From: Propionicimonas sp. | GTDB taxonomy: Bacteria > Actinomycetota > Actinomycetes > Propionibacteriales > Propionibacteriaceae | Assembly: GCF_029975155.1 (NCBI RefSeq) | Contig: NZ_JARKPQ010000140.1 | Location: forward strand, 16,195-80,194 | Direction: 5' to 3' | DNA: 64,000 bases | Shown here: in pieces, positions 34,540 through 45,241 of the stretch | Position numbering within the stretch: position 1 is the stretch's first letter | How the letters are laid out: every line of letters begins with the position of its first letter | Translations under genes and position numbers: made by a program | The notes under the pieces: model-generated | What the model was told of the DNA's origin: nothing | Databases searched by the model: none | The model's input: only the letters and a program-made list of their open reading frames with translations

Positions 34540-34790
34540 CCGTCATCCCGGGCTTCGACTGAGTTCTCCGTCATCCCGGGCTCCGACCCGGGATCCCCGA
34601 ACAGTCCCCACACCGACTCACGGGATCCCGGCATCCGCCGGGATGACACGACGAGAGACCACCCCAAACCGTCATCCCGGGCCGGGATGACAACGAGAGA
34701 CCACCCCAAGCCGTCATCCCGGGCTCCGACCCGGGATCCCCGAACGGTCCCTACACGGACTCACCGGATCCCGGCGTCCGCCGGGATGAC
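34540..34790. repeat. Dispersed palindromic repeats entering the GTPase gene
   Basis: At least two copies of 'gtcatcccgggctccgacccgggatcccc...ggatcccggcgtccgccgggatgac' lie here. The last copy overlaps the final codons and the stop of the minus-strand GTPase gene. No separate gene is present. Confidence 0.85.
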
Positions 34791-36422
34791 ACTCGCCGCC
34801 GTCCCGACCGTCGCGTCGAGTGAGGCCAGGTCCGCCTCGATCGCCGGGAGGTCGGTGCTCTGCGTGTCCAGGAGTTGCCGGCACGTGAGCTCGGCCTCGC
34901 GCAGGGCGGCCACGTGGTCGGCCAGGCTCTGTTCGAGGCTTCGCCTCGCCGCGGCTGCCGTGCGGTAGCCGGTGCGGGCGAGGTTGCGCTCCACCTGCGC
35001 AGGCACCATCCGCAGGAAGTGCCGGTGCACCAGCGGACGCAGCAGCGCCATCGGCAGAGCCCAGGAGAGCAGCTCCAGATGGCTGTCGAAGACCGCGCTC
35101 ACCATCACGTCGACCGGTTCCACGGGCGTCCGGACGGGCTGCGGGACGGGGAGGTCGAGACCGACGCCGGTCGCCTCGCGGACGAGCCGGCCGAGCCGCT
35201 GCAGAAAGGCCTCCCCCATCCGTTCCGCCGGCTCCAGGCCCTGGTCGAGGAGCGGTCCGAGCTCGTCCGCGCAGGCCGCGGCGAACGGCGTGGCCGCGTC
35301 GCGGAGCGCGTGCCGCAGCCAGTCCCGGAACTGCGCGGTCTCGGCGGCGAGAGAGCCCCGCCACGCAGGCAGGCGTCCGGCGAGATCGCGCTGCACCCGC
35401 CACGCGGTGGCCGGCAGCGCCTCCCCCACCATCGCCTGGCAGCGCGCGGTGATCGTCCGGTTGACCGGTTCGAGCTGGGCGCGCGCCTGGCGGGTGAGGC
35501 TCGGCAGGCGCCGGCTCTCCGCGTCCAGGGCACCGCGCAACTGCGCCATCGCCTCGGCGTGGGTCGTCGCGGCGAGCCGGGCCAGCTCCAGGTAGGTCCG
35601 GCACTCGGTGGCGAGCCGGACCGACCGGTACGCCGCGAGGTCGGTCGCCGCGGCCGTCGCCGAGTCGCTCAGCTCCCGCAACTCCCTGCGCAGCCGCTCG
35701 CGCTGCGGCCGGTGCCGGGCGGCGCTGGACACGGGCAGGACGGACGGCGCAACGGGCAGCCGCCGGCCGAGCTGCGTCCTGACGTGCTCGAGGACGGCTC
35801 GCTGGTCGTGCTCAGTGAGCAGGTCGATCTTGGTCAGCGCGATCAGGATCCGCGGCGTGTGCGGGTGGAGCAGTTCGAGGAGCTCCAGGTCGTCCTCGGC
35901 GAGCGGCTGGGTGGCGTTGACGGCGAGGATCGCGGCGCCGACGTTCGGCAGCCAGTCCAGGCTCGCGCGGGTGTTGTGCTTCCAGGAGCTCCCCGTCCCC
36001 GGAGTGTCCACCAGGACCAGTCCGGCGAGGTCGGCCAGCGCCGGGGACGCCACGTCCACCCACTCCACGCCGCGGTGGTTCGACGGGTTGCCGGTCTCGG
36101 TGGCCCAGTGCCCGATCTCCGCCGGCTCGATGCCGAACGGCGCCCCCGTCCCGGTCTTCACCGACACGCGCAGGGCCGGGCCGAACCGCAGCCGGGTGAT
36201 CACGGCGGTGGCCGGGATCGCCTGCACCGGCAGCAGGTCCTCCCCGAGAAGCTGGTTCAGCAGCGTGGTCTTGCCGGCCTTGAACCGGCCGAGGACGGCG
36301 ACCGTGACCAGCCCTTCGGCGGCCTGCTGCTGTGCCGTGCGGCAACGCCGGTCGATGTCGGTCAGGTGGTGACGGCGCGCGATCCCGGCGATCGTGGCCA
36401 GGTCAGGGGAGAACGATCCCAT
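34761..36422 (-). CDS. Dynamin-like GTPase under fluoride riboswitch
   Basis: A 553-residue large GTPase. G1 GRFKAGKT (45-52), G3 DTPG (139-142, followed by TGSSWKHN), and G4 TKID (197-200) are intact. Residues 250-450 are mostly helical, and a hydrophobic patch near the C-terminus (LLSWALPMALLRPLVHR) could be a membrane paddle, as in bacterial dynamin-like proteins. The last residues (SVIPADAGIR and the stop) are translated from a dispersed repeat. A fluoride riboswitch-like RNA lies 10 bases upstream of the start, back to back with the one serving enolase. Its role in fluoride stress is not described to my knowledge; membrane repair or remodelling is a guess. Confidence 0.86.
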   Translation of the reverse strand: MGSFSPDLATIAGIARRHHLTDIDRRCRTAQQQAAEGLVTVAVLGRFKAGKTTLLNQLLGEDLLPVQAIPATAVITRLRFGPALRVSVKTGTGAPFGIEPAEIGHWATETGNPSNHRGVEWVDVASPALADLAGLVLVDTPGTGSSWKHNTRASLDWLPNVGAAILAVNATQPLAEDDLELLELLHPHTPRILIALTKIDLLTEHDQRAVLEHVRTQLGRRLPVAPSVLPVSSAARHRPQRERLRRELRELSDSATAAATDLAAYRSVRLATECRTYLELARLAATTHAEAMAQLRGALDAESRRLPSLTRQARAQLEPVNRTITARCQAMVGEALPATAWRVQRDLAGRLPAWRGSLAAETAQFRDWLRHALRDAATPFAAACADELGPLLDQGLEPAERMGEAFLQRLGRLVREATGVGLDLPVPQPVRTPVEPVDVMVSAVFDSHLELLSWALPMALLRPLVHRHFLRMVPAQVERNLARTGYRTAAAARRSLEQSLADHVAALREAELTCRQLLDTQSTDLPAIEADLASLDATVGTAASVIPADAGIR

Positions 36423-36432
36423 GCGTGTCCGG

Positions 36433-36488
36433 TCCTTCTCTCGTCAGGGACCGTCAGCAGGGTGCGGTTGAGGCGAGCCCCATCGCCT
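36433..36488 (-). promoter_or_regulatory. Fluoride riboswitch (crcB motif) upstream of GTPase gene
   Basis: Read on the minus strand: GGCGATGGGGCTCGCC, then TCAACCGC, a short loop, and GCTGACGGTCCCTGA. This matches the fluoride-riboswitch pattern GGCGATG-N-CGCC, AAC(C/T)GC, GCTGATGG(C/T)TCC(T)AC, with the GGGG/TCCC pseudoknot possible. It ends about ten bases before the GTPase start, which favours control of translation. The core was identified by eye from the known consensus. Confidence 0.82.
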
Positions 36489-36544
36489 GGAACACATGGT
36501 AACCGTGGTCGCCCCTGACGCGACGGGTCGACTAGAGTCGGCAG

Positions 36545-36604
36545 TGGGCGGTGGGGCTCGCCCTTACTCAAACTGCCGTGCCCGCGGCCAACGGTCCCTA
36601 CCTC
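36545..36604 (+). promoter_or_regulatory. Fluoride riboswitch (crcB motif) upstream of enolase
   Basis: GGGCGGTGGGGCTCGCCC, TTACTC, AAACTGCC, loop, GGCCAACGGTCCCTAC. The P1 stem, the AAACTGCC strand and the 3' GGTCCCTAC pseudoknot strand all match the fluoride aptamer; the usual GATG is GGTG here. It lies about 125 bases before the enolase ATG. The spacer contains a hairpin (GGCTCCA/TGGAGCC) near 36690 that could be part of the expression platform. Confidence 0.78.
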
Positions 36605-36728
36605 ATGTGCAGTCCGGCTGGACATGGAGGTGGGGCTTTCGCTCACTTTCACCTCACCCTTCGCGGCCAGCCGGGCTGCACCCCTCCCGGGCTCCACCGT
36701 GGAGCCGGCGAAGCGAAAGGGGACGGTC

Positions 36729-37994
36729 ATGGGTTTCGAGATCAGCAGCGTGCAGGCGTTGGAGGTGCTGGACTCCCGCGGGCGTCCCACGCTCTCGGTG
36801 ACGGTCGGCCTCGCGGACGGGACGGTGGCCGAGGCCGGGGTGCCGTCCGGCGCGTCGACGGGGACGCGGGAGGCCGTCGAACTCCGCGACGGGGACCCGG
36901 CCCGGTTCGGCGGTGCGGGCGTCAGCCAGGCCGTCGCCCACGTGAACACCGAGATCAACGCCGGGCTGGCCGGACGCGAATGGGCCGGTCTCGCCGAGGT
37001 CGACCAGGCCATGCGCGACCTGGACGGCACCCCGAACAAGGCCCGGCTGGGCGCCAACGCGATCATCGGGACGTCGATGGCGCTGGCCCGGGCGCTCGCC
37101 GCCGCCGCGGGGTCGCCGCTGTACGAGTGGCTGCCCGGCACCGGTGCGTCCCGCCGCCTGCCGGTGCCCTGTTTCAACGTGCTGAACGGCGGCGCCCACG
37201 CCCCCAACCCGCTGGACTTCCAGGAGTTCATGGTCTGCCCGCTCGGCGCGCCGTCGATGCGCGAAGCCGTCCGCGCGGGGGCGGAGGTGTACCAGGCGCT
37301 GCGGAAGCGGCTCGTCGCCGGCGGACACGCCACCGGGCTGGGCGACGAGGGCGGGTTCGCGCCGAACCTCGCCGAGCCGGAGGAGGTCCTGGAGCTGATC
37401 GTCGCGGCGATCGGGGACGCCGGCTACGCCGCCGGCAGTGACGGGGTGGGCATCGCGCTCGACCCGGCCGCGTCCGAGTTCTGGTCGGACGGCGGCTACA
37501 CGGTGAACCAGGTGCGGCTGTCCAGCGCGGATCTGATCGCCCGCTACGCCGAGATGCTGGACCGCTTCCCGATCTGGAGCATCGAGGACGGCCTCGGCGA
37601 GCAGGATCCGGACGGCTGGAAGCAGCTCACCGCCGAGCTCGGCGACCGCGTCCAGCTGGTCGGGGACGACAACTTCTGCACGAACCCGGCGATCATCACC
37701 GCGGCGATCGCCGACGGGATCGCCAACGCCGCCCTGATCAAGGTGAACCAGATCGGCACGGTCACCGAGACCCTGGAGGCGATGCGGATCTGCCACGCGG
37801 CCGGGTACGGCCAGATGGTCTCCCACCGCTCCGGCGAGACCCCGGACACGTTCATCGCCGACCTCGCGGTGGCCACCGGCTGCGGCCAGATCAAGACCGG
37901 CGCCCCCGCCCGCGGCGAGCGGGTGGCGAAGTACAACCGCCTGGTCCAGATCGAGGCCCAGCGTCCCGCCCTGCCCTACGGTCTGGCCCGGTAG
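36729..37994 (+). CDS. eno: Enolase, fluoride-responsive copy
   Basis: A 421-residue phosphopyruvate hydratase (2-phosphoglycerate to phosphoenolpyruvate). Conserved parts: PSGASTGTREAVELRD, NVLNGGAHAPNPLDFQEFM, GLGDEGGFAPN, IEDGLGEQDPDGW, KVNQIGTVTETLEAM and SHRSGETPDTFIADLAVA. The usual 'GDDLFVTN' reads GDDNFCTN, two changes next to a Mg-binding Asp. Fluoride with phosphate is a classical enolase inhibitor, so a copy behind a fluoride riboswitch fits a compensating or less sensitive isozyme. Whether the genome has another, housekeeping eno cannot be seen here. Confidence 0.95.
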   Translation: MGFEISSVQALEVLDSRGRPTLSVTVGLADGTVAEAGVPSGASTGTREAVELRDGDPARFGGAGVSQAVAHVNTEINAGLAGREWAGLAEVDQAMRDLDGTPNKARLGANAIIGTSMALARALAAAAGSPLYEWLPGTGASRRLPVPCFNVLNGGAHAPNPLDFQEFMVCPLGAPSMREAVRAGAEVYQALRKRLVAGGHATGLGDEGGFAPNLAEPEEVLELIVAAIGDAGYAAGSDGVGIALDPAASEFWSDGGYTVNQVRLSSADLIARYAEMLDRFPIWSIEDGLGEQDPDGWKQLTAELGDRVQLVGDDNFCTNPAIITAAIADGIANAALIKVNQIGTVTETLEAMRICHAAGYGQMVSHRSGETPDTFIADLAVATGCGQIKTGAPARGERVAKYNRLVQIEAQRPALPYGLAR

Positions 37995-38134: not shown

Positions 38135-38503
38135 CTACAGGCTGCCCAGCCAGAACCCCAGTGCGGCGCCGGCGACGCTGAGGACCAGCATGCCGCCGGC
38201 ATGGACGAGCAGTGCCCAGCCGCGGCCGCCCCGGGCGAGCCGCGCGGCCTCCACGCAGGCGGTGCTGAAAGTCGTGTAGCCGCCGAGGAAGCCGGTGCCG
38301 AGCAACTGCTTGAGTTCCGGGTCGCCGGTGTGGGTGGCCCACCAGCCGGTGATCACGCCGAGCAGGAGCGACCCGGTGACGTTGATCACGGCCGTGCCCA
38401 GGGGCATGCCGCGGTTCGTCGTCCGCCGGGCGACCTCCGAGTCGACCACGAACCGCGCGACCGCGCCGAACCCGCCGGCGAGCGCGACCAGGAACGGGAT
38501 CAT
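38135..38503 (-). CDS. crcB: Fluoride exporter subunit CrcB/Fluc (distal copy)
   Basis: A 122-residue four-helix membrane protein. Signature segments are GGFGAVARFVVDS (first helix), GTAVINVTGSLLLGVITGWW (the pore Asn helix) and GFLGGYTTFSTACVEAARL (the TTFST phenylalanine-box break). Fluc channels act as dual-topology dimers that let fluoride leave the cell. Two adjacent genes usually give an antiparallel heterodimer. The ATG overlaps the stop of the other crcB (ATGA). Confidence 0.95.
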   Translation of the reverse strand: MIPFLVALAGGFGAVARFVVDSEVARRTTNRGMPLGTAVINVTGSLLLGVITGWWATHTGDPELKQLLGTGFLGGYTTFSTACVEAARLARGGRGWALLVHAGGMLVLSVAGAALGFWLGSL

Positions 38504-38979
38504 CGGATCGCCCCCTTCGCGAGCCGGTAGCGGCGCAGCAGCCGCCGCACTCCTCTGGCGCCGAGGAACGCGCACAGAAGGCCGAGCAGCACGCTGCCCA
38601 GCGCGTAGCCCAGACCGACCAGCCATGCCCCGGAATGGACCAACTGCGCCGTTTCGACCGCGAACGTGCTGTACGTGGTGTAGCCACCCATCACGCCGGT
38701 GCCCACGCCGAGCCTCAACCCGCGGCGCCAGCCTCGATCGGGACCGGTCTCGGCCAGCACCTCCAGCAGCACCCCCAGCACGAGCGCGCCGGAGACGTTG
38801 ATCCAGAAGGTGGTCCACGGCCACTCCCCCGGCATGGCCGGGAACGCACCCTCCAGCCACGCGCGGGCGGACGTGCCGACCGTGCCGCCGAGGAGGATCA
38901 CCCCCAGCCACGCGGGACGCACCGGAATGCGCAGCATCCGCAGGCCGGGGATGGAATGGCCGTCCTGCGGCCGGGTCAC
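38500..38979 (-). CDS. crcB: Fluoride exporter subunit CrcB/Fluc (proximal copy)
   Basis: A 159-residue Fluc subunit. The GTG start overlaps the stop of the uspA-like gene (GTGA). After an N-terminal ~30-residue extension come 'LGGTVGTSARAWLE', 'TFWINVSGALVLGVLLEVL' and 'GVMGGYTTYSTFAVETAQLV', the three Fluc signatures, and a basic C-terminus (RRLLRRYRLAKG). The charge distribution differs from the partner copy, as expected for two fixed-orientation subunits. Confidence 0.95.
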   Translation of the reverse strand: MTRPQDGHSIPGLRMLRIPVRPAWLGVILLGGTVGTSARAWLEGAFPAMPGEWPWTTFWINVSGALVLGVLLEVLAETGPDRGWRRGLRLGVGTGVMGGYTTYSTFAVETAQLVHSGAWLVGLGYALGSVLLGLLCAFLGARGVRRLLRRYRLAKGAIR

Positions 38980-39518
38980 CACGGGGTCGGTGCCTTCCAG
39001 TCGACGACGGAGAGCGGCACGATCAGCACGGGACGGTGCTGGTGCCGCGACAGCCGCAGCGCCACCGAACCCGCGATGAACTCGCGCAGCCGGTCGGTGG
39101 ACGACAGCCGCTTCGCGCCCACGACGATCGCGGACGCCTCGACGGCCCGCGCCAGGTGCGTGAGCGCCCGGTCGGGACGCCCGGCGAGGTAGCGGAACTC
39201 CCACGGACCCTCGTGGCTGGCCAGTGCGCGCCCGAGGAAGGCGGTGATGTCCCGCTCGCGCTGCTGCCAGGAGTCGTCCGCCTGGTCGGGGTCGAGATCC
39301 GAGTGCCGGACGGTGCCGTCCGCGTACTCCTCGTCGACGATCCGGGACTCGTCCGCGTAGCCGAAGTACAGCGGCACACCGCCGAGCGCGTCCGACCAGG
39401 CCGACGCGGTGAGCGCCACCAGTTCGGACTGACCCGGCACCACACCGACCACCAGCGGCTGGCCCGCCACCGGGGCCATGCGATCGGGACTGGGCTGCGG
39501 CACGTGGTGGAACGGCAC
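38976..39518 (-). CDS. Universal stress protein-like protein heading the fluoride exporter operon
   Basis: A 180-residue UspA-fold protein. 'PLVVGVVPGQSELVALTASAW' is the first strand and helix. The later motif 'ASAIVVGAKRLSSTDRLREFIAGSVALRLSRHQHRPVLIVP' follows the nucleotide-binding GxxG-x9-G(S/T) pattern in spacing. Start set at a GTG seven bases after GGAGG; an internal ATG at 39479 lacks a clear ribosome site. It lies between a fluoride riboswitch and two crcB genes, all coupled. UspA-like genes are known among riboswitch-linked fluoride genes. Confidence 0.85.
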   Translation of the reverse strand: MPFHHVPQPSPDRMAPVAGQPLVVGVVPGQSELVALTASAWSDALGGVPLYFGYADESRIVDEEYADGTVRHSDLDPDQADDSWQQRERDITAFLGRALASHEGPWEFRYLAGRPDRALTHLARAVEASAIVVGAKRLSSTDRLREFIAGSVALRLSRHQHRPVLIVPLSVVDWKAPTPW

Positions 39519-39570
39519 GGATCGACCTCCGCTCAGAGGGGCGCCGAACTCCCGCGCGCCCGCCAAGGAC

Positions 39571-39634
39571 GTACAGGAACCATCAGCCGGTCGGCGGTTC
39601 GGGATTGCCCCGGGTGGGATCCATCACCCGCCGC
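39571..39634 (-). promoter_or_regulatory. Fluoride riboswitch (crcB motif) upstream of uspA-crcB-crcB
   Basis: Minus strand: GGGTGATGGATCCCACCC, a small extra hairpin (GGGGCAATCCC), AACCGCC, loop, GGCTGATGGTTCCTGTAC. This is the best match in the window, with the canonical TGATGG, AACCGCC and GGCTGATGGTTCC segments. It ends 52 bases before the uspA-like start. Confidence 0.9.
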
Positions 39635-39649
39635 ACACCCTAGCCCGGA

Positions 39650-39731: not shown

Positions 39732-40340
39732 TCAGAGACCGGTCTGGTGCGTGACGGCCAGGGCCGTCTCGATGGGGTCGTCCTTGCTGTTGGCGCGGAT
39801 CAGGTGCCAGCCGGTGTCGTCGTGGCGCAGGAGGCTCCAGCAGCCGGTGCGGGGCTGGACGTGCTCGGTGTGGCCGGGGGTGGGGGTCAGGGTGTCGAGC
39901 AGGATCCGGATCACGGCGTCATGGCTGACCACGGCGACCGCGACGTCCTCGCCCAGGTCGGCCAGCTCGGCGACCACGGCGTGGGCGCGCTCGGCCACCG
40001 CAGCGGACGGTTCCACGCCCGGCGCGGCATCGAAGGACCCGTAGTCGGCCAGCACGTCCGCCGCCGGCGTGCCGTCGAAGCGGCCGTACGCGCGGTCGGC
40101 GAGCCGCTCGTCCGTCTCGACCTCCACCTCGGCGGCCTCGGCGATCGGGGTCGCCGTCTCCACCGCCCGGCTCAGCGGGCTGGAGATCACCCGGACGAGG
40201 CCCACGTCCCGCAGCGCGGCGGCGAGGTCGCGGGCCTCCGCGTGACCCACCAGGTCGAGGTCGGGGTCGAGCCGTCCGCGCAGGAGCCCCGCGACGTTGA
40301 GCTGGGTGCGACCGTGGCGGCACAGGTAGATGTCGGTCAT
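39732..40340 (-). CDS. Histidine phosphatase family protein
   Basis: A 202-residue member of the phosphoglycerate mutase-like histidine phosphatase superfamily. The catalytic RHG motif is YLCRHGRTQLN (His9), with 'VISSPLSRAVETA' containing the second catalytic Arg and 'AVAVVSHDAVIRILL' the C-terminal His. It is the last gene of the MutS-like operon, its ATG overlapping the stop of the second MutS-like gene. Substrate unknown. Presence in a fluoride-regulated operon may point to a phosphorylated metabolite that builds up when enolase is blocked (speculative). Confidence 0.85.
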   Translation of the reverse strand: MTDIYLCRHGRTQLNVAGLLRGRLDPDLDLVGHAEARDLAAALRDVGLVRVISSPLSRAVETATPIAEAAEVEVETDERLADRAYGRFDGTPAADVLADYGSFDAAPGVEPSAAVAERAHAVVAELADLGEDVAVAVVSHDAVIRILLDTLTPTPGHTEHVQPRTGCWSLLRHDDTGWHLIRANSKDDPIETALAVTHQTGL

Positions 40341-41824
40341 GTCGGTGTCCTTTCACACAGGCGTTCGTACAGGTCGATGCCATGGCTGGTGGCCTGCGGT
40401 TGCCCGGGCAGGACGCGGAAGCTGCGCGTCCCGTCCAGCTGCCGTTCGGCCAGCAGGAAGATCGTGCCCGGCCGGTCGAGGTAGTGCCGCGCGAGCCGGG
40501 CGAAGTGGGTGACCACGACCAGCCGCAGGCCGTGGTCGAGGAGCGCGTCGATGATGTCCGCGGCGATCCAGGTGCCCTCCACCTCGTCGGTGGAGGCGAA
40601 GGACTCGTTCATCAGCAGCAGGTCGCCCGGCTGGCACCGGTCGACGATCGCGCTCATCCGGACGAGCTCCTCCGCCAGCTTGCCGCTGGCCAGGTCGTCG
40701 TCCTCCGCCCTCCGGAAGTGGGTGTGCACCGCGGGCGCCGGGCACGACCGGAACGCCCTCGCCGGCACGAACATGCCGGCCTGGAGGAACAGCTGCGCGA
40801 TGCCGATGCTGCGCAGGAACATGGTCTTGCCGCCCTGGTTGGCCCCGGTGATCACCGCCAGGCCGACCCGCGAGCCGGTCAGGTCGTTGGGCACCGGCGG
40901 CGCGCCGGTCCGGACGGCCAGGCTCAGACAGGACAGCCCGGAGGCGGACAGCGCGTCGCGTTCGCCCGCCGGCTCCGGCCAGCAGACGCCCACACCGATC
41001 TCGGCGAGCCGCTCGTGCAGCTGCACGCAGCCGACGTAGAAGCCGGCCTCCCAGCGCAGCTGCCTGAAGAACGCCACGACGTGGTCGTTCGCCCGGCCGA
41101 GGATGACGGCCACGTCGTGGATGGCGTCGTCGCGGAGTTCGGCCAGCGCCCGCGCCCCGGCCTCGTCGCGGTCCGCGATCGTGAACCGGGGCTGGCCCGG
41201 CGGGGTGAATCCGAGGGCAGCCCACCAGTGCCGCCGTCCCGGACGGGGGGCGAGCAGCTCCAGCGAGCCGAGCAGCCCCGACTCGTCCAGGCGCGCCCTG
41301 CTGACCACCCCCTGCGGGAACTCGAGCCGGGTCAGCAGCGCGGCCATGTCGTCGAGGTACCCGGCGTCCAGTTCCTCGACCAGTCGCCGGTACAGCCCGA
41401 ACAACCCGGGCGAGCGGACGGACGGCAGGTGCTGCGCGGCGAACCCGGCGAGCTCCCCCAGCAGGGGCAGCAGCGCCCGCAGGCCGTGGATCGAGCGGGA
41501 CAGCAGCGAGTCGGCGGTCCGCCCGGCGTACATCCAGATCGAGTGCTGGCTCTCCAGCGCCCGCCCGGACAGGTCGAAGAGAGCGCGGATCGCGGACGGG
41601 TCGGCGAGCGCGTCGGCGAGGACGTGCTGGCGCCAGGCGATCTGCGCGGGATCGACCAGCGGACGCAGCAGGACGGCCGGGCACAGGCCCTGCAACCGCC
41701 GCTCGGGGACCATCACCTCGAACACCGAGTCGAGGTCGAGGTCGGCGATCAGCTCGTCCGCGCCGTCCGGGAGGGTGGTGCCCAGGTCGGCGTCCCGGTC
41801 GGGGAACAGCAGCTGGACCTTCAT
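40337..41824 (-). CDS. MutS-like ATPase, second copy
   Basis: A 495-residue protein with only the core/clamp-like helical region and C-terminal ATPase of MutS; the mismatch-recognition N-terminal domain is absent. Walker A is TGANQGGKT (327-334 region). The Walker-B segment reads DLLLMNESFAST, so the usual Asp-Glu is Asn-Glu, while Glu is kept. 'LVVVTHFARLARHYLD' supplies the switch His. It starts at the ATG overlapping the stop of the first copy (the 862-residue track ORF runs into that gene in another frame). The pair probably forms a heterodimer. MutS-like genes are known companions of fluoride riboswitches, with unknown function. Confidence 0.88.
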   Translation of the reverse strand: MKVQLLFPDRDADLGTTLPDGADELIADLDLDSVFEVMVPERRLQGLCPAVLLRPLVDPAQIAWRQHVLADALADPSAIRALFDLSGRALESQHSIWMYAGRTADSLLSRSIHGLRALLPLLGELAGFAAQHLPSVRSPGLFGLYRRLVEELDAGYLDDMAALLTRLEFPQGVVSRARLDESGLLGSLELLAPRPGRRHWWAALGFTPPGQPRFTIADRDEAGARALAELRDDAIHDVAVILGRANDHVVAFFRQLRWEAGFYVGCVQLHERLAEIGVGVCWPEPAGERDALSASGLSCLSLAVRTGAPPVPNDLTGSRVGLAVITGANQGGKTMFLRSIGIAQLFLQAGMFVPARAFRSCPAPAVHTHFRRAEDDDLASGKLAEELVRMSAIVDRCQPGDLLLMNESFASTDEVEGTWIAADIIDALLDHGLRLVVVTHFARLARHYLDRPGTIFLLAERQLDGTRSFRVLPGQPQATSHGIDLYERLCERTPT

Positions 41825-43389
41825 CGCAGCCTCCGGGCCAGATCGTCGCCGGAGAGGCCGTGCCGGGCGGCCAGCGCGGCCGCGTGGGTGCGGCCGGCGG
41901 GCGGCTGGGCGCGGAACCGGAAGGTCGGCCGGGTGGGGTCGTCGGACGCGACCTGGCCCACCATGCTGACCGCGCCGTCCGTCGCGGTGACCAGCTCTTC
42001 GAGGAACGTCACCCACAGCACCCGGCAGCCCGCCTCGGCGAAGCGGCCGAGCACGCGTCCGGACAGCTGCAGCGCGTCCTCGGCCGTGGTGGCCGAGAAC
42101 AGCTCGTTGAGCACGAGCAGCGCCGACCCGTCCGCCGCGTCCAGCAGGTCGCGCAACCGGACCAGCTCGTCGGCGAGACCACCCCGCTGGTTGGCCGGGT
42201 CGTCCGGACGCGGGAAGTGGGTGAGCACCGGGTTGAGCACCGGCAGGGATGCCGCTCTGGCAGGCACGGGCAGGCCCAGCGACGCGAGGTGCGCCAGCTG
42301 CCCGGCCGCACGGACATAGGTGGTCTTGCCGCCCTGGTTGGGTCCGGTGACGAAGACGAGCCGCTCGTCCGGGCGCAGGGCCAGGTCGTTCGGCACGAGC
42401 GGGTCGTCCGGGCCGGCCTTGAGCGCGAGGGCGAGATCGACGAAGCCGCTCAGGTCGAGCGGGCCGCCACCGGGCTCGCGGACCTGCGGCAGGCACCACG
42501 GGACGCCGCGGGCGGCGAGCCCGTCCGCGACCTTGAGGAAGCCGAGGTAGAAACGCAGCTCCTCGCCCAGGTGGTCCAGCTCGTCGGGCAGGAAGTGGGC
42601 GTGGGCGGTCGCGAACCGGTGCAGGCGCTCGAAGGCCTCGGGCATGAGCTCGGCAACCAGCCCGATCGCCTGGGCCTCGACGTGGTTGAGGTAGCGCCGC
42701 GGACGCGCCGGGGCGGGGCTCGCGTCCCCGTCCGGCGTGGCGAAGCGGGCGAAGAACGACTCGACCTGCTCGCCCCACGGCTGCCGGCCGCCGTCCGGGG
42801 CGGCCCAGACGGTGCCGCTCTGGATGCCGAGTTCCACGGCGGGGCCGCGCACCTCGACCAGCGAGGCCGCGCAACCCTCTGCCAGGTCGCCGAACGGCTG
42901 GCTGCGCTCGTAGTCGGCCAGCCATTCGGCGACACCGGTCAGCCCGGCGGACCGTGGCCGGAGGTGATCCAGCCGGGCGCGAAAGTCGCGCACGGCCGCC
43001 GTGAACCGTCGGATCGCCTCAAGCGTGTCGAGGTCGGCGGGGATCCGGTAGTGGGCGTTCGCACGGGCGGCGATGGCATTCCTGGAGGCGGCGACGGCGG
43101 CCTCGAACGAGGTGGCCGCCGCGCGGAGATCGGTCCGCTGCAGGTCGCGGACGACCTCTTGCCGGTAGCGGATCTGCTCCGGGTCGCGGAGGGGCCTGAG
43201 CCACACCGCGCGCTGGAACTCACCCGGCGCCATGGCGGCGACGACGGCGTCCAGGTGCAGGTCCTCGATGCAGGCCGGCTGCACGACAGCCGTCCGCTCG
43301 GGACCGGACGGGCCGAGCAGCGTCGGTGCGGCAGGACCGCGGGTGGTGACTGTCCCTGGTGGGTGAATGACATAGCCGGCTGCGCTCAT
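41821..43389 (-). CDS. MutS-like ATPase, first copy, under fluoride riboswitch
   Basis: A 522-residue MutS-type ATPase lacking mismatch-binding and connector domains. An N-terminal segment is followed by a helical clamp-like region and the ATPase with Walker A GPNQGGKT (349-356). The region after it (RAASLPVLNPVLTHFPRPDD) resembles the MutS dimer interface. The Walker-B analogue is ALLVLNELFSAT, again Asn-Glu. It heads a three-gene unit joined by ATGA overlaps and is preceded by a fluoride riboswitch 19 bases upstream. A role in classic mismatch repair is unlikely. Confidence 0.88.
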   Translation of the reverse strand: MSAAGYVIHPPGTVTTRGPAAPTLLGPSGPERTAVVQPACIEDLHLDAVVAAMAPGEFQRAVWLRPLRDPEQIRYRQEVVRDLQRTDLRAAATSFEAAVAASRNAIAARANAHYRIPADLDTLEAIRRFTAAVRDFRARLDHLRPRSAGLTGVAEWLADYERSQPFGDLAEGCAASLVEVRGPAVELGIQSGTVWAAPDGGRQPWGEQVESFFARFATPDGDASPAPARPRRYLNHVEAQAIGLVAELMPEAFERLHRFATAHAHFLPDELDHLGEELRFYLGFLKVADGLAARGVPWCLPQVREPGGGPLDLSGFVDLALALKAGPDDPLVPNDLALRPDERLVFVTGPNQGGKTTYVRAAGQLAHLASLGLPVPARAASLPVLNPVLTHFPRPDDPANQRGGLADELVRLRDLLDAADGSALLVLNELFSATTAEDALQLSGRVLGRFAEAGCRVLWVTFLEELVTATDGAVSMVGQVASDDPTRPTFRFRAQPPAGRTHAAALAARHGLSGDDLARRLR

Positions 43390-43407
43390 GGGCGTCCCTC
43401 CATCCGA

Positions 43408-43453
43408 GGTAGGGACCGTCAGCGTTCGCGGTTGTCGGCGAGCCCCATCGCCG
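43408..43453 (-). promoter_or_regulatory. Fluoride riboswitch (crcB motif) upstream of MutS-like operon
   Basis: Minus strand: GGCGATGGGGCTCGCC, GAC, AACCGC, GAAC, GCTGACGGTCCCTAC. Nearly the same as the copy ahead of the GTPase gene (same P1 stem, same TGACGGTCCCT). It ends about 19 bases before the MutS-like ATG, and the spacer contains GGAGGGA as ribosome-binding site. Confidence 0.85.
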
Positions 43454-43525
43454 TCCCTCCACTGTACCCGCAGCGCCCGCCGGGAGAACCTGCCGCCAAC
43501 CCCACCAACCGTTGGTCGGGCGGCG

Positions 43526-44049
43526 TCAGCCCTTCAGGCCGACGGAGGCGGTGCCCTCGATGAAGTAGCGCTGGCCGAAGGCTGCGGCACCGCGAACACC
43601 TGGCCGTCGTAGGTCACGTCGTCGATCGTCGACTGGTAGTACTGCTGGTTCGGCGTGACGCCCCACAGGGCGTAGCACTGATCGAGCGGGATGATCAGGT
43701 TCTTCGCCGCGAAGGTGGCGACGACGTTGCGTTCCACCTGGATCAGGTCCGGCGCCTGGCCGGCCGCCGCCCGGGCCGCGAACTTCTGCGGGTCGAAGTT
43801 GGTGGTGTCCATGTCGACCTTCAGGCCGCCGAGCTTGCTCGCCGCGAAGTCGGCGCGCGACTGGCCGACCTCGTCGGACGGGTTGAAGCCGCTGGTCCTG
43901 AGCGTGCCCGTGACGTCCTTGCTGAAGACGCTCGACGCGGACGCGCCGGGCGTCGCCTTGCCGCCGGTGTTCGGGCCACCTCCGCATCCGGTCGCCACCA
44001 GTGCGGTCGCCACTGCGAGCGCCGCTCCTGCCAGGTGGATCCTGCTCAT
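43526..44049 (-). pseudogene. Deletion remnant: sugar-binding lipoprotein N-terminus joined to a permease C-terminus
   Basis: The first ~155 codons encode a normal solute-binding lipoprotein start: signal AALAVATALVATGCGGG, then 'QAPDLIQVERNVVATFAAKNLIIPLDQCY' and 'TIDDVTYDGQVFAVPQ'. The reading then jumps, with a frame change, to AFGQRYFIEGTASVGLKG and a stop. That ending is typical of the C-terminus of MalG-type permeases (QR-x-F-x-x-G-x-x-x-G-x-x-KG). An internal deletion must have removed the rest of the binding protein, one permease and most of the other. The lipoprotein piece has a good GGAGG site and may still be made. Confidence 0.75.
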
Positions 44050-44242
44050 CTCCAACCTCCGCTCCCGACGTCTGGCGAGAGAAGTGCCCTTCTTCACCGG
44101 TCCTTAACCGGTGTTCATCACGGACGTGTGAATCGCGCCCCCGAACCTCAGAAGTGTTGCCCAGTTACCTGTTCCGAGAGAGCCGGTTAGTGGGGAGCAC
44201 AGGCATCCGACGCCGTCGGCGCAGCAGGACGAGGAGAAGACC
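44050..44242. other. Promoter region of envelope-type operon
   Basis: A 193-base divergent gap between the lipoprotein remnant and the 44.2-kb operon. No repeat or palindrome stands out; GAGGAGAAG lies just before the downstream ATG. The region around 44105-44125 ('ttaaccggtgttcatcacgg') is the likeliest promoter area. Confidence 0.35.
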
Positions 44243-45241
44243 ATGACGAACGACAGGCTCGACCCGATCACCGGACGGAGGGTGCCCGGCCAGGTGCCCG
44301 AGGACACCCTGAGTTCCGGCGCGGGCAGCGACCGCAACTACCCCGACCTCGGCGACGTCGACCCCGCCGTCGCCAACCCGGCCTACGGTCTGGACGACAC
44401 CGAGCCGGTAGGTGACGCGGAGATCCCGGGTCAAGCCCGGGATGACGTGCGCGGGGGCCGGGATGACGTGCCCTCCTCCCGTCATCCCGGCGAACGCCGG
44501 GATCCCCTGAGCCCGTCCGGCGACCCCACCACGGGGTTTCCCGGGCAAGCCCGGGATGACGCGGCTGGCGGCGGAGGCGACGCCAGGGCGAAGGCAGAGC
44601 ACGTCGTCGAACACGCCGCTGACCAGGCTTCCGACGTGAAGGACACCGCCGTCGAGAAGGCCTCCGACGTCAAGGACGCGGCGCGGGACCGCGGCGCCGA
44701 CGTGGCCGACGTGGCCAGGGACGAACTCGCCCGGCTGGCGGGCGACACTCGCGCCCAGTTCCAGGGCCTGTGGGACCAGGCCAGCGGGCAGCTCCGCGAG
44801 CAGGCGAGCACCGGCAAGCAGCAGCTGGCCGACCTGCTGCACGCACTGGCGGGTGAGCTGGGCGAGATGGCGTCGAAGTCCGAGCAGGACGGTCCGGTGA
44901 CGGCGCTGGCGAAGCAGGCGTCCCGGCGGGGCGGCGAGCTGTCGCACTGGCTGGCGAACGCCGACGCGTCCGATGTGCTGGCGGAGGTCCGGCGTTTCGC
45001 GCGGCGCCGTCCGTTCGTGTTCCTCGCCGGGGCGACCGTCGCCGGCGTGGTCGTCGGCCGGCTCAGCCGGGGCCTGATGGCCGGCAGGGACGTCACCCCG
45101 TCCCGGGCGGCGACCGCAGCGGCGGAGGCGACGGACGTCCCCGCTCCCCGGCTCGTCGCCGTGGTGCCGACCTACGGCGGCGGCACCACCGGTCAGACCT
45201 ACGGCTACGACCGGGCCGACGCGGGCGGTGACCTGCGGTGA
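44243..45241 (+). CDS. Apolipophorin-like/DUF3618-associated membrane-anchored protein with repeat insertion
   Basis: 332 residues. The N-terminal ~58 residues are acidic (LDPITGRRVPGQVPEDTL). Residues ~110-270 form long amphipathic Ala-rich helices with repeats such as ASDVKDTAVEKASDVKDAA. One membrane helix follows (FVFLAGATVAGVVVGRLS) and then a Gly/Tyr tail. Residues ~60-108 (IPGQARDD..., SRHPGERRDP) are the translation of two dispersed-repeat arms and are alien to the rest. It is the first of three overlapping genes (GTGA to the next). The set resembles stress-linked envelope operons of actinobacteria; precise function unknown. Confidence 0.75.
   Translation: MTNDRLDPITGRRVPGQVPEDTLSSGAGSDRNYPDLGDVDPAVANPAYGLDDTEPVGDAEIPGQARDDVRGGRDDVPSSRHPGERRDPLSPSGDPTTGFPGQARDDAAGGGGDARAKAEHVVEHAADQASDVKDTAVEKASDVKDAARDRGADVADVARDELARLAGDTRAQFQGLWDQASGQLREQASTGKQQLADLLHALAGELGEMASKSEQDGPVTALAKQASRRGGELSHWLANADASDVLAEVRRFARRRPFVFLAGATVAGVVVGRLSRGLMAGRDVTPSRAATAAAEATDVPAPRLVAVVPTYGGGTTGQTYGYDRADAGGDLR

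Follow-up and report, generated by a model that had tools for sequence, protein, structure and literature searches.

What two adjacent MutS-type ATPase genes do when they stand behind a fluoride riboswitch is the question raised by a locus of Propionicimonas sp. (assembly GCF_029975155.1), which lies in a window of 64,000 nucleotides (nt), i.e., the whole stretch of DNA that was analysed (contig NZ_JARKPQ010000140.1, positions 16,195-80,194 of the forward strand). The two genes, here called A (MutS4A-like) and B (MutS4B-like), are followed by P, which encodes a histidine phosphatase of branch 1. The reading favoured here, judged rather more probable than its contrary, is that A and B would form an obligate MutS4A-MutS4B heterodimer that is induced by fluoride and acts in fluoride tolerance rather than in mismatch repair; its direct basis is the riboswitch linkage, the operon pairing, the co-divergence of the two proteins, their domain content and a set of conserved motif swaps.

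In bacteria, in archaea and on conjugative plasmids of enterobacteria, the same protein pair bears a mismatch-repair annotation, while the genes around it and its catalytic motifs point to fluoride stress. If the reading given above is true, annotation pipelines mislabel the pair, the 15-year-old 'mutS' entry of the fluoride regulon gains an identity, and it may be necessary to reinterpret a recombination phenotype that has been published.

The A-B-P operon and its fluoride aptamer

Gene A (41821-43389, minus strand) is an open reading frame (ORF) of 522 amino acids (aa) that comprises a MutS core and ATPase, gene B (40337-41824, minus strand) encodes 495 aa, and P (39732-40340, minus strand) matches His_Phos_1 (E 5e-41), the ORF coordinates giving a 4-nt ATGA overlap at both the A/B and the B/P junctions. 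MutS_V is the sole Pfam domain in A (E 1.9e-15) and in B (E 1.1e-14), with neither the mismatch-recognition and connector domains (MutS_I/II) nor the KOW and SMR domains found in either protein by Pfam, and the MSH2 alignment of the B profile starts at residue 368, past domains I and II. Fold searches with the AlphaFold2 single-chain models (mean pLDDT 78.7 for A and 83.7 for B) lead to the cores of MSH2/MSH3, MutS and MutS2, and by sequence the solved structure nearest to A and B is 7vuf, the core of MutS2 (E 1e-24 and 3e-27). The secondary structure of the models, read without superposition, suggests that only a beta-hairpin occupies the expected position of the clamp.

The motifs of the two proteins differ from each other as well as from those of ordinary MutS proteins. 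In A, the P-loop is GPNQGGKT, Walker B is LVLNE and the switch reads TF, its His being lost, while B has GANQGGKT, LLMNE and a retained TH. The Ser-Thr of the trans signature is gone from both proteins, and Gly-Gly stands at that site in A.

The aptamer that precedes A (43403-43461, minus strand) ends 13 nt from the start codon and scores 37.4 bits with the Rfam model RF01734, which has a gathering score of 34 bits. A putative expression platform (43390-43416, minus strand) is formed by the conserved aptamer segment GUCCCU, which is able to pair with the Shine-Dalgarno sequence AGGGAC before the start of A; this pairing also exists at locus L071, and at L072 in the shifted form GGUCCC/GGGACC. 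The minimum free energy fold of the leader contains it, with a z-score of only -0.78, which is not significant, and for this reason the role of the platform is put conditionally: the sequence suggests that fluoride binding to the aptamer would free the Shine-Dalgarno sequence and so release the translation of A.

An earlier note on this DNA had described a fluoride-regulated operon of three ATGA-joined genes behind a fluoride riboswitch, in which both ATPases lack the mismatch-recognition domain, keep the GxNQGGKT P-loop and carry Asn-Glu in place of Asp-Glu at Walker B. Each of these points was recovered, in the ORF overlaps and the riboswitch score, in the domain content, and in the motifs of both A and B, and the claim of regulation agrees with the riboswitch, with a plausible platform that sequesters the Shine-Dalgarno sequence, and with the islands of the relatives.

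The database label 'DNA mismatch repair protein MutS' speaks for a quite different explanation, in which the pair would be a canonical mismatch-repair substitute in an organism without MutS1. This is highly improbable, and mismatch repair was rejected on the missing domains I/II, the lack of MutL and the altered catalytic motifs. In the genome, MutL gave 0 matches and no other MutS_V protein was found, and mismatch repair is therefore excluded here. Both A and B score far under the cut-off of the MutS1 model TIGR01070 and have Asn-Glu at Walker B rather than the Asp-Glu of MutS1; moreover, the pair is found in other genomes alongside MutS1 and MutS2, which also counts against a substitute.

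Pairing, descent and fluoride linkage among the relatives

The relatives of the pair are patchily distributed, being present in 11 of 148 family genomes and in 15 of 397 phylum genomes. A profile search with the B alignment as the query returned at least 540 relatives of B, the best 80 of which were kept as named loci; these are the top matches to one island-borne B, include a few near-duplicates (e.g., L161 and L167), and span Actinomycetota, Bacillota, Chloroflexota, Pseudomonadota, Acidobacteriota, Bacteroidota, Thermotogota and archaea. Gene A lies directly upstream of B in 79 of these best 80 loci. Among 100 pairs, the junction is an exact 4-nt overlap in 89, and in 97 the gap or overlap does not exceed 20 nt; the distances of A and B co-vary, with a mirror-tree r of 0.94, the highest value under permutation being 0.28. 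In the tree, the A clade and the B clade are each monophyletic (100/99), mutually sister, and separate from MutS1, MutS2 and a KamC-like protein, the deeper root being uncertain because of long branches. A phylogeny of riboswitch-linked MutS-like proteins had been called for in the earlier note, and its outcome is this placement of A and B as sister clades outside MutS1/MutS2; the heterodimer with a task other than mismatch repair that had been predicted there is strengthened by the obligate pairing, the reciprocal monophyly, the co-divergence, the asymmetric active sites and the lack of MutL or another MutS.

The published group to which this description corresponds is MutS4A/MutS4B (Lin et al. 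2007, as reported in PMC5742357), adjacent MutS-ATPase genes with a stop/start overlap, a layout that the window pair shares; in that account MutS4 is patchy and laterally moved, with A and B sister to one another, as is likewise the case here. The MutS4 traits present are the A-before-B adjacency, the stop/start overlap, the MutS ATPase (MutSac) domain as the only recognisable one, and the sister paralogues, so that the window pair is a member of MutS4 by layout and published description.

Two other families were considered and rejected. MutS2 (RqcU) resembles A and B in having a MutS core, clamp and ATPase without domains I/II, but it carries KOW and SMR, has DE and TH in all of the references used here, and forms a separate clade, while A and B reach 62-71 bits against the TIGR01069 cut-off of 400. 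KamC (NF052383, annotated as the reactivase ATPase of lysine 5,6-aminomutase) is, like A and B, a MutS-type ATPase of ~500 aa, with an annotated non-DNA task. Here the scores are 44 and 70.6 bits (70.6 for B) where the cut-off is 300, DE is retained in the KamC-like reference, and the KamC model mainly detects MutS2, which scores far above A and B. At a locus of the Thermotogota (L173, genome G587), a 528-aa KamC-like MutS protein was seen with 283 bits, slightly under this cut-off.

Fluoride aptamers recur with the pair. Of 25 loci taken from genomes sampled in the phylum and the family, 15 have an aptamer that exceeds the gathering score of Rfam, and a model built from this 25-locus set, with a match defined as at least 20 bits, was applied to the 80 named loci. 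A match occurs somewhere in 62 of these best 80, which is a lower bound because the model misses true aptamers (L136 has 12 bits with it and 38 with Rfam), and within 500 nt upstream of A in 36 of the 67 evaluable loci. None of 20 canonical mutS1/mutS2 control loci, drawn from 11 of the same genomes, has an aptamer (maximum 16.1 bits). An aptamer is present in 9 of 10 pair-bearing phylum genomes and in 41 of the 189 others (Fisher p ~2e-5, uncorrected for relatedness), the value rising to 8e-5 if one further pair-bearing genome is counted in the phylum sample.

The neighbours include genes of fluoride resistance. The gene clusters found near 103 pair loci comprise a dynamin-like GTPase (33), MFS (30), enolase (27), DUF190/universal stress protein (USP) (26), complex-I-like subunits (17), histidine phosphatase/phosphoglycerate mutase (15), CrcB (14) and an Na/H exchanger (11); pyrophosphatase is near the pair in ~8 loci, and CLC is likewise a recurrent neighbour. 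Genes for an MFS transporter, DUF211 and VIT-like proteins recur by fluoride riboswitches and the pair at L073, L074, L076 and L081, and another dynamin-like GTPase of such an island lies at 10560-12677 of L215.

Plasmids also carry the pair, with 48 records that hold a relative of B, of which 21 are predicted to be conjugative. A 59-bit aptamer stands at the head of antiporter-USP-A-B on plasmids of E. coli and Klebsiella. This group adjoins ppaC-uspA-eno-gpmA-crcB, which has the gene set and order of the riboswitch-driven GI3 operon of E. cloacae FRM (PMC5533749), and on these plasmids both A and B are annotated as 'DNA mismatch repair protein MutS'. Large fluoride-resistance islands that include the pair under this label are borne by plasmids of Enterobacteriaceae (L213 and L216 among the examples), and in one paper mutS was entered as plasmid backbone mismatch-repair genes (PMC6317114). 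A Mycobacterium branderi plasmid has a pair of the same layout (L217, 5382-8530) directly behind a 53-bit aptamer, annotated as 'DNA mismatch repair protein', which is an indirect hint that the window pair groups with the published MutS4 sequences.

Part of this link was already on record, given that Weinberg 2010 (PMC2864571) counts mutS, under 'DNA repair', among the genes that follow crcB RNAs; the passage concerned is silent on the MutS family, the pairing and the loss of repair domains. The MutS4 literature, on the other hand, presents a mismatch-repair/recombination gene, with fluoride mentioned 0 times in PMC5742357, whereas the pair here belongs to a fluoride island. No paper that joins the MutS4 pair with the riboswitch-mutS link was found in the open-licence literature, and while each is already published, their joining and the motif swaps appear to be new in the literature searched. 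The clade is set apart from the characterised MutS proteins because of its catalytic swaps and its fluoride-island context, which are undescribed in that literature.

Rebuilt active sites and the possible targets of the pair

The Walker A Lys is retained in all of the 199 A and B sequences, and Asn-Glu forms Walker B in all 96 A and in 102 of the 103 B, against Asp-Glu in the MutS1, MutS2 and KamC-like references. The single Asp-Glu among the 103 B sequences occurs in the B gene of L096 (7001-8488), a natural revertant. The switch His is replaced by Phe in 95/95 scorable A and retained in 103/103 B, and in B and most A the Ser-Thr that MutS1/MutS2 have as trans signature is replaced by Gly-Lys or Gly-Arg. 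Because B keeps the switch His and A does not, one site probably hydrolyses ATP and the other mainly binds it or regulates. Residues 693-696, in Walker B of E. coli MutS, hold Mg2+-bound waters; ATPase activity is lost when these residues are substituted, and the D693N protein was crystallised (3K0S; PMC3848065). The pair is the natural counterpart of this mutant in both subunits, which bears on how Mg2+ coordination relates to fluoride poisoning.

In the mechanism proposed, A and B would be held together as a dimer by their MutS ATPase domains, and the machine so formed would be asymmetric, with a switch His in B only. The Asn at Walker B, together with the Gly-Lys/Arg trans site, may lessen the dependence on tightly held Mg2+, and a Mg-weak ATPase of this kind may keep running while ordinary enzymes that handle phosphate are poisoned by Mg-fluoride complexes. 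As far as the motifs indicate, the change at the Mg2+ site hints at a machine built for Mg-fluoride stress, whose shortened core/clamp would grip and then remodel a target. If the rest of this reading holds, the preferred class of target, put by analogy at somewhat under an even chance, would be a fluoride-stalled protein or ribonucleoprotein, a preference due to the ribosome-splitting precedent of MutS2 and the annotation of KamC; the main alternative target is recombining DNA.

One specific form of the heterodimer reading follows from MutS2, whose core without domains I/II splits ribosomes (disomes) by ATP hydrolysis (PMC10897456) and is the nearest solved relative of the pair. By this analogy, A and B would split ribosomes that have stalled on fluoride-poisoned translational GTPases, which is quite unlikely, since they are devoid of KOW and SMR and no recurrent translation gene is present among the neighbours.

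Another specific form is unlikely as well, namely that the pair would extract Mg-fluoride(-phosphate) from a poisoned enolase, pyrophosphatase or similar enzyme, as KamC is annotated to do on an aminomutase. The 27 loci with a nearby enolase and the ~8 with a pyrophosphatase are in its favour, as is the fact that a reactivase named in NCBIfam is a MutS-type ATPase whose model matches B; nevertheless, A and B fall far below the KamC cut-off, MutS2 does far better on the same model, many pair loci have no enolase, and the islands already provide a spare one.

We know of no direct damage of DNA by fluoride, which counts against the explanation that the pair is merely a fluoride-induced factor of DNA recombination or repair, which would promote homologous recombination by clamping branched DNA in the manner of MutS. 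This explanation, too, is considered unlikely, although it has experimental results to draw on: the M. yongonense MutS4A-4B operon, placed in M. smegmatis, increased homologous recombination, with recombinant rpoB colonies raised to 27/36 vs 5/16 and the tract length to 121 vs 44 nt (PMC5742357), and the closest folds of A and B are MutS, MSH2 and MutS2. The assay had low colony numbers and neither an ATPase-dead nor a fluoride control (PMC5742357), the neighbours of the pair are metabolic and transport fluoride genes, and the M. yongonense MutS4 locus itself has enolase and NADH-dehydrogenase genes (PMC5742357), like many of the fluoride islands described here. That island, with its enolase, NADH dehydrogenase, hydrogenase subunit and MutS4, could be a further example of a fluoride island.

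Several points weigh against the reading of a fluoride-induced heterodimer. The recombination phenotype in M. smegmatis favours DNA as the target, and MutS2 reads ribosomes via KOW and SMR, the very domains missing from A and B. The GI3 operon of E. cloacae FRM confers high fluoride resistance, and its published gene table holds no MutS pair (PMC5533749), unlike the E. coli and Klebsiella plasmids, from which it follows that the pair is not required everywhere. In addition, the riboswitch was not detected at some pair loci, and the Walker B Asn could abolish hydrolysis instead of adapting it. Extended to the whole MutS4 clade of bacteria and archaea, as a dedicated fluoride-tolerance machine with rebuilt, Mg-weak sites that would free fluoride-trapped enzymes or ribosomes rather than repair DNA, the proposal is doubtful.

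The fluoride island and the phosphatase

The pair and P belong to a 9-kb island with four fluoride aptamers (one of them weak), CrcB, a USP, a dynamin-like GTPase and a second enolase. The three further aptamers lie within ~7 kb of the one before A, and all four of those found in the 5.0-Mb assembly sit in this island. On the minus strand, a fluoride riboswitch (39567-39637, 38.2 bits) precedes USP-CrcB-CrcB, i.e., the universal stress protein (38976-39566, Usp 2.1e-9) and two CrcB/Fluc fluoride channel genes (38135-38940, CRCB 1.9e-21), both of which match the CrcB genes of L071 and L076, and another (36438-36496, 34.0 bits) precedes the dynamin-like GTPase (34761-36422, Dynamin_N 4.1e-18), which is recurrent in such islands. 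We know of no described role of dynamins in fluoride tolerance. On the plus strand, the weak aptamer (36537-36606, 23.7 bits, below the gathering score) stands before the second enolase (36729-37994), the better-scoring Enolase_C copy of the genome being on contig C117. As the bin is 8.3% contaminated, contamination of the assembly was considered as the source of the island; it is unlikely, because two genomes of the same genus (G021 and G010) carry the A-B-P-DYN-ENO set with riboswitches.

The alignment of P has the RHG motif and the second His, with Asp where the catalytic Glu is usual, and the protein scores under every NCBIfam equivalog cut-off and so fits no named equivalog. At L074 and L076 the phosphatase stands behind a riboswitch of its own, apart from the pair, and on enterobacterial plasmids a BPG-dependent phosphoglycerate mutase takes its place. 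P was therefore rejected as a fixed part of the pair, and is an optional, separately movable member of the island. The clearing of a stalled phospho-metabolite is a possible task for it.

Finally, two minor features were observed upstream of A. A fragment of an SBP_bac_8 solute-binding lipoprotein (43534-44097, minus strand, 187 aa) is apparently truncated and possibly represents a broken gene at the edge of the island, and a repeat-like stretch at ~44165-44950, which reads RHPGERRDP / IPAFAGMT in several frames, is probably an interspersed palindromic repeat.

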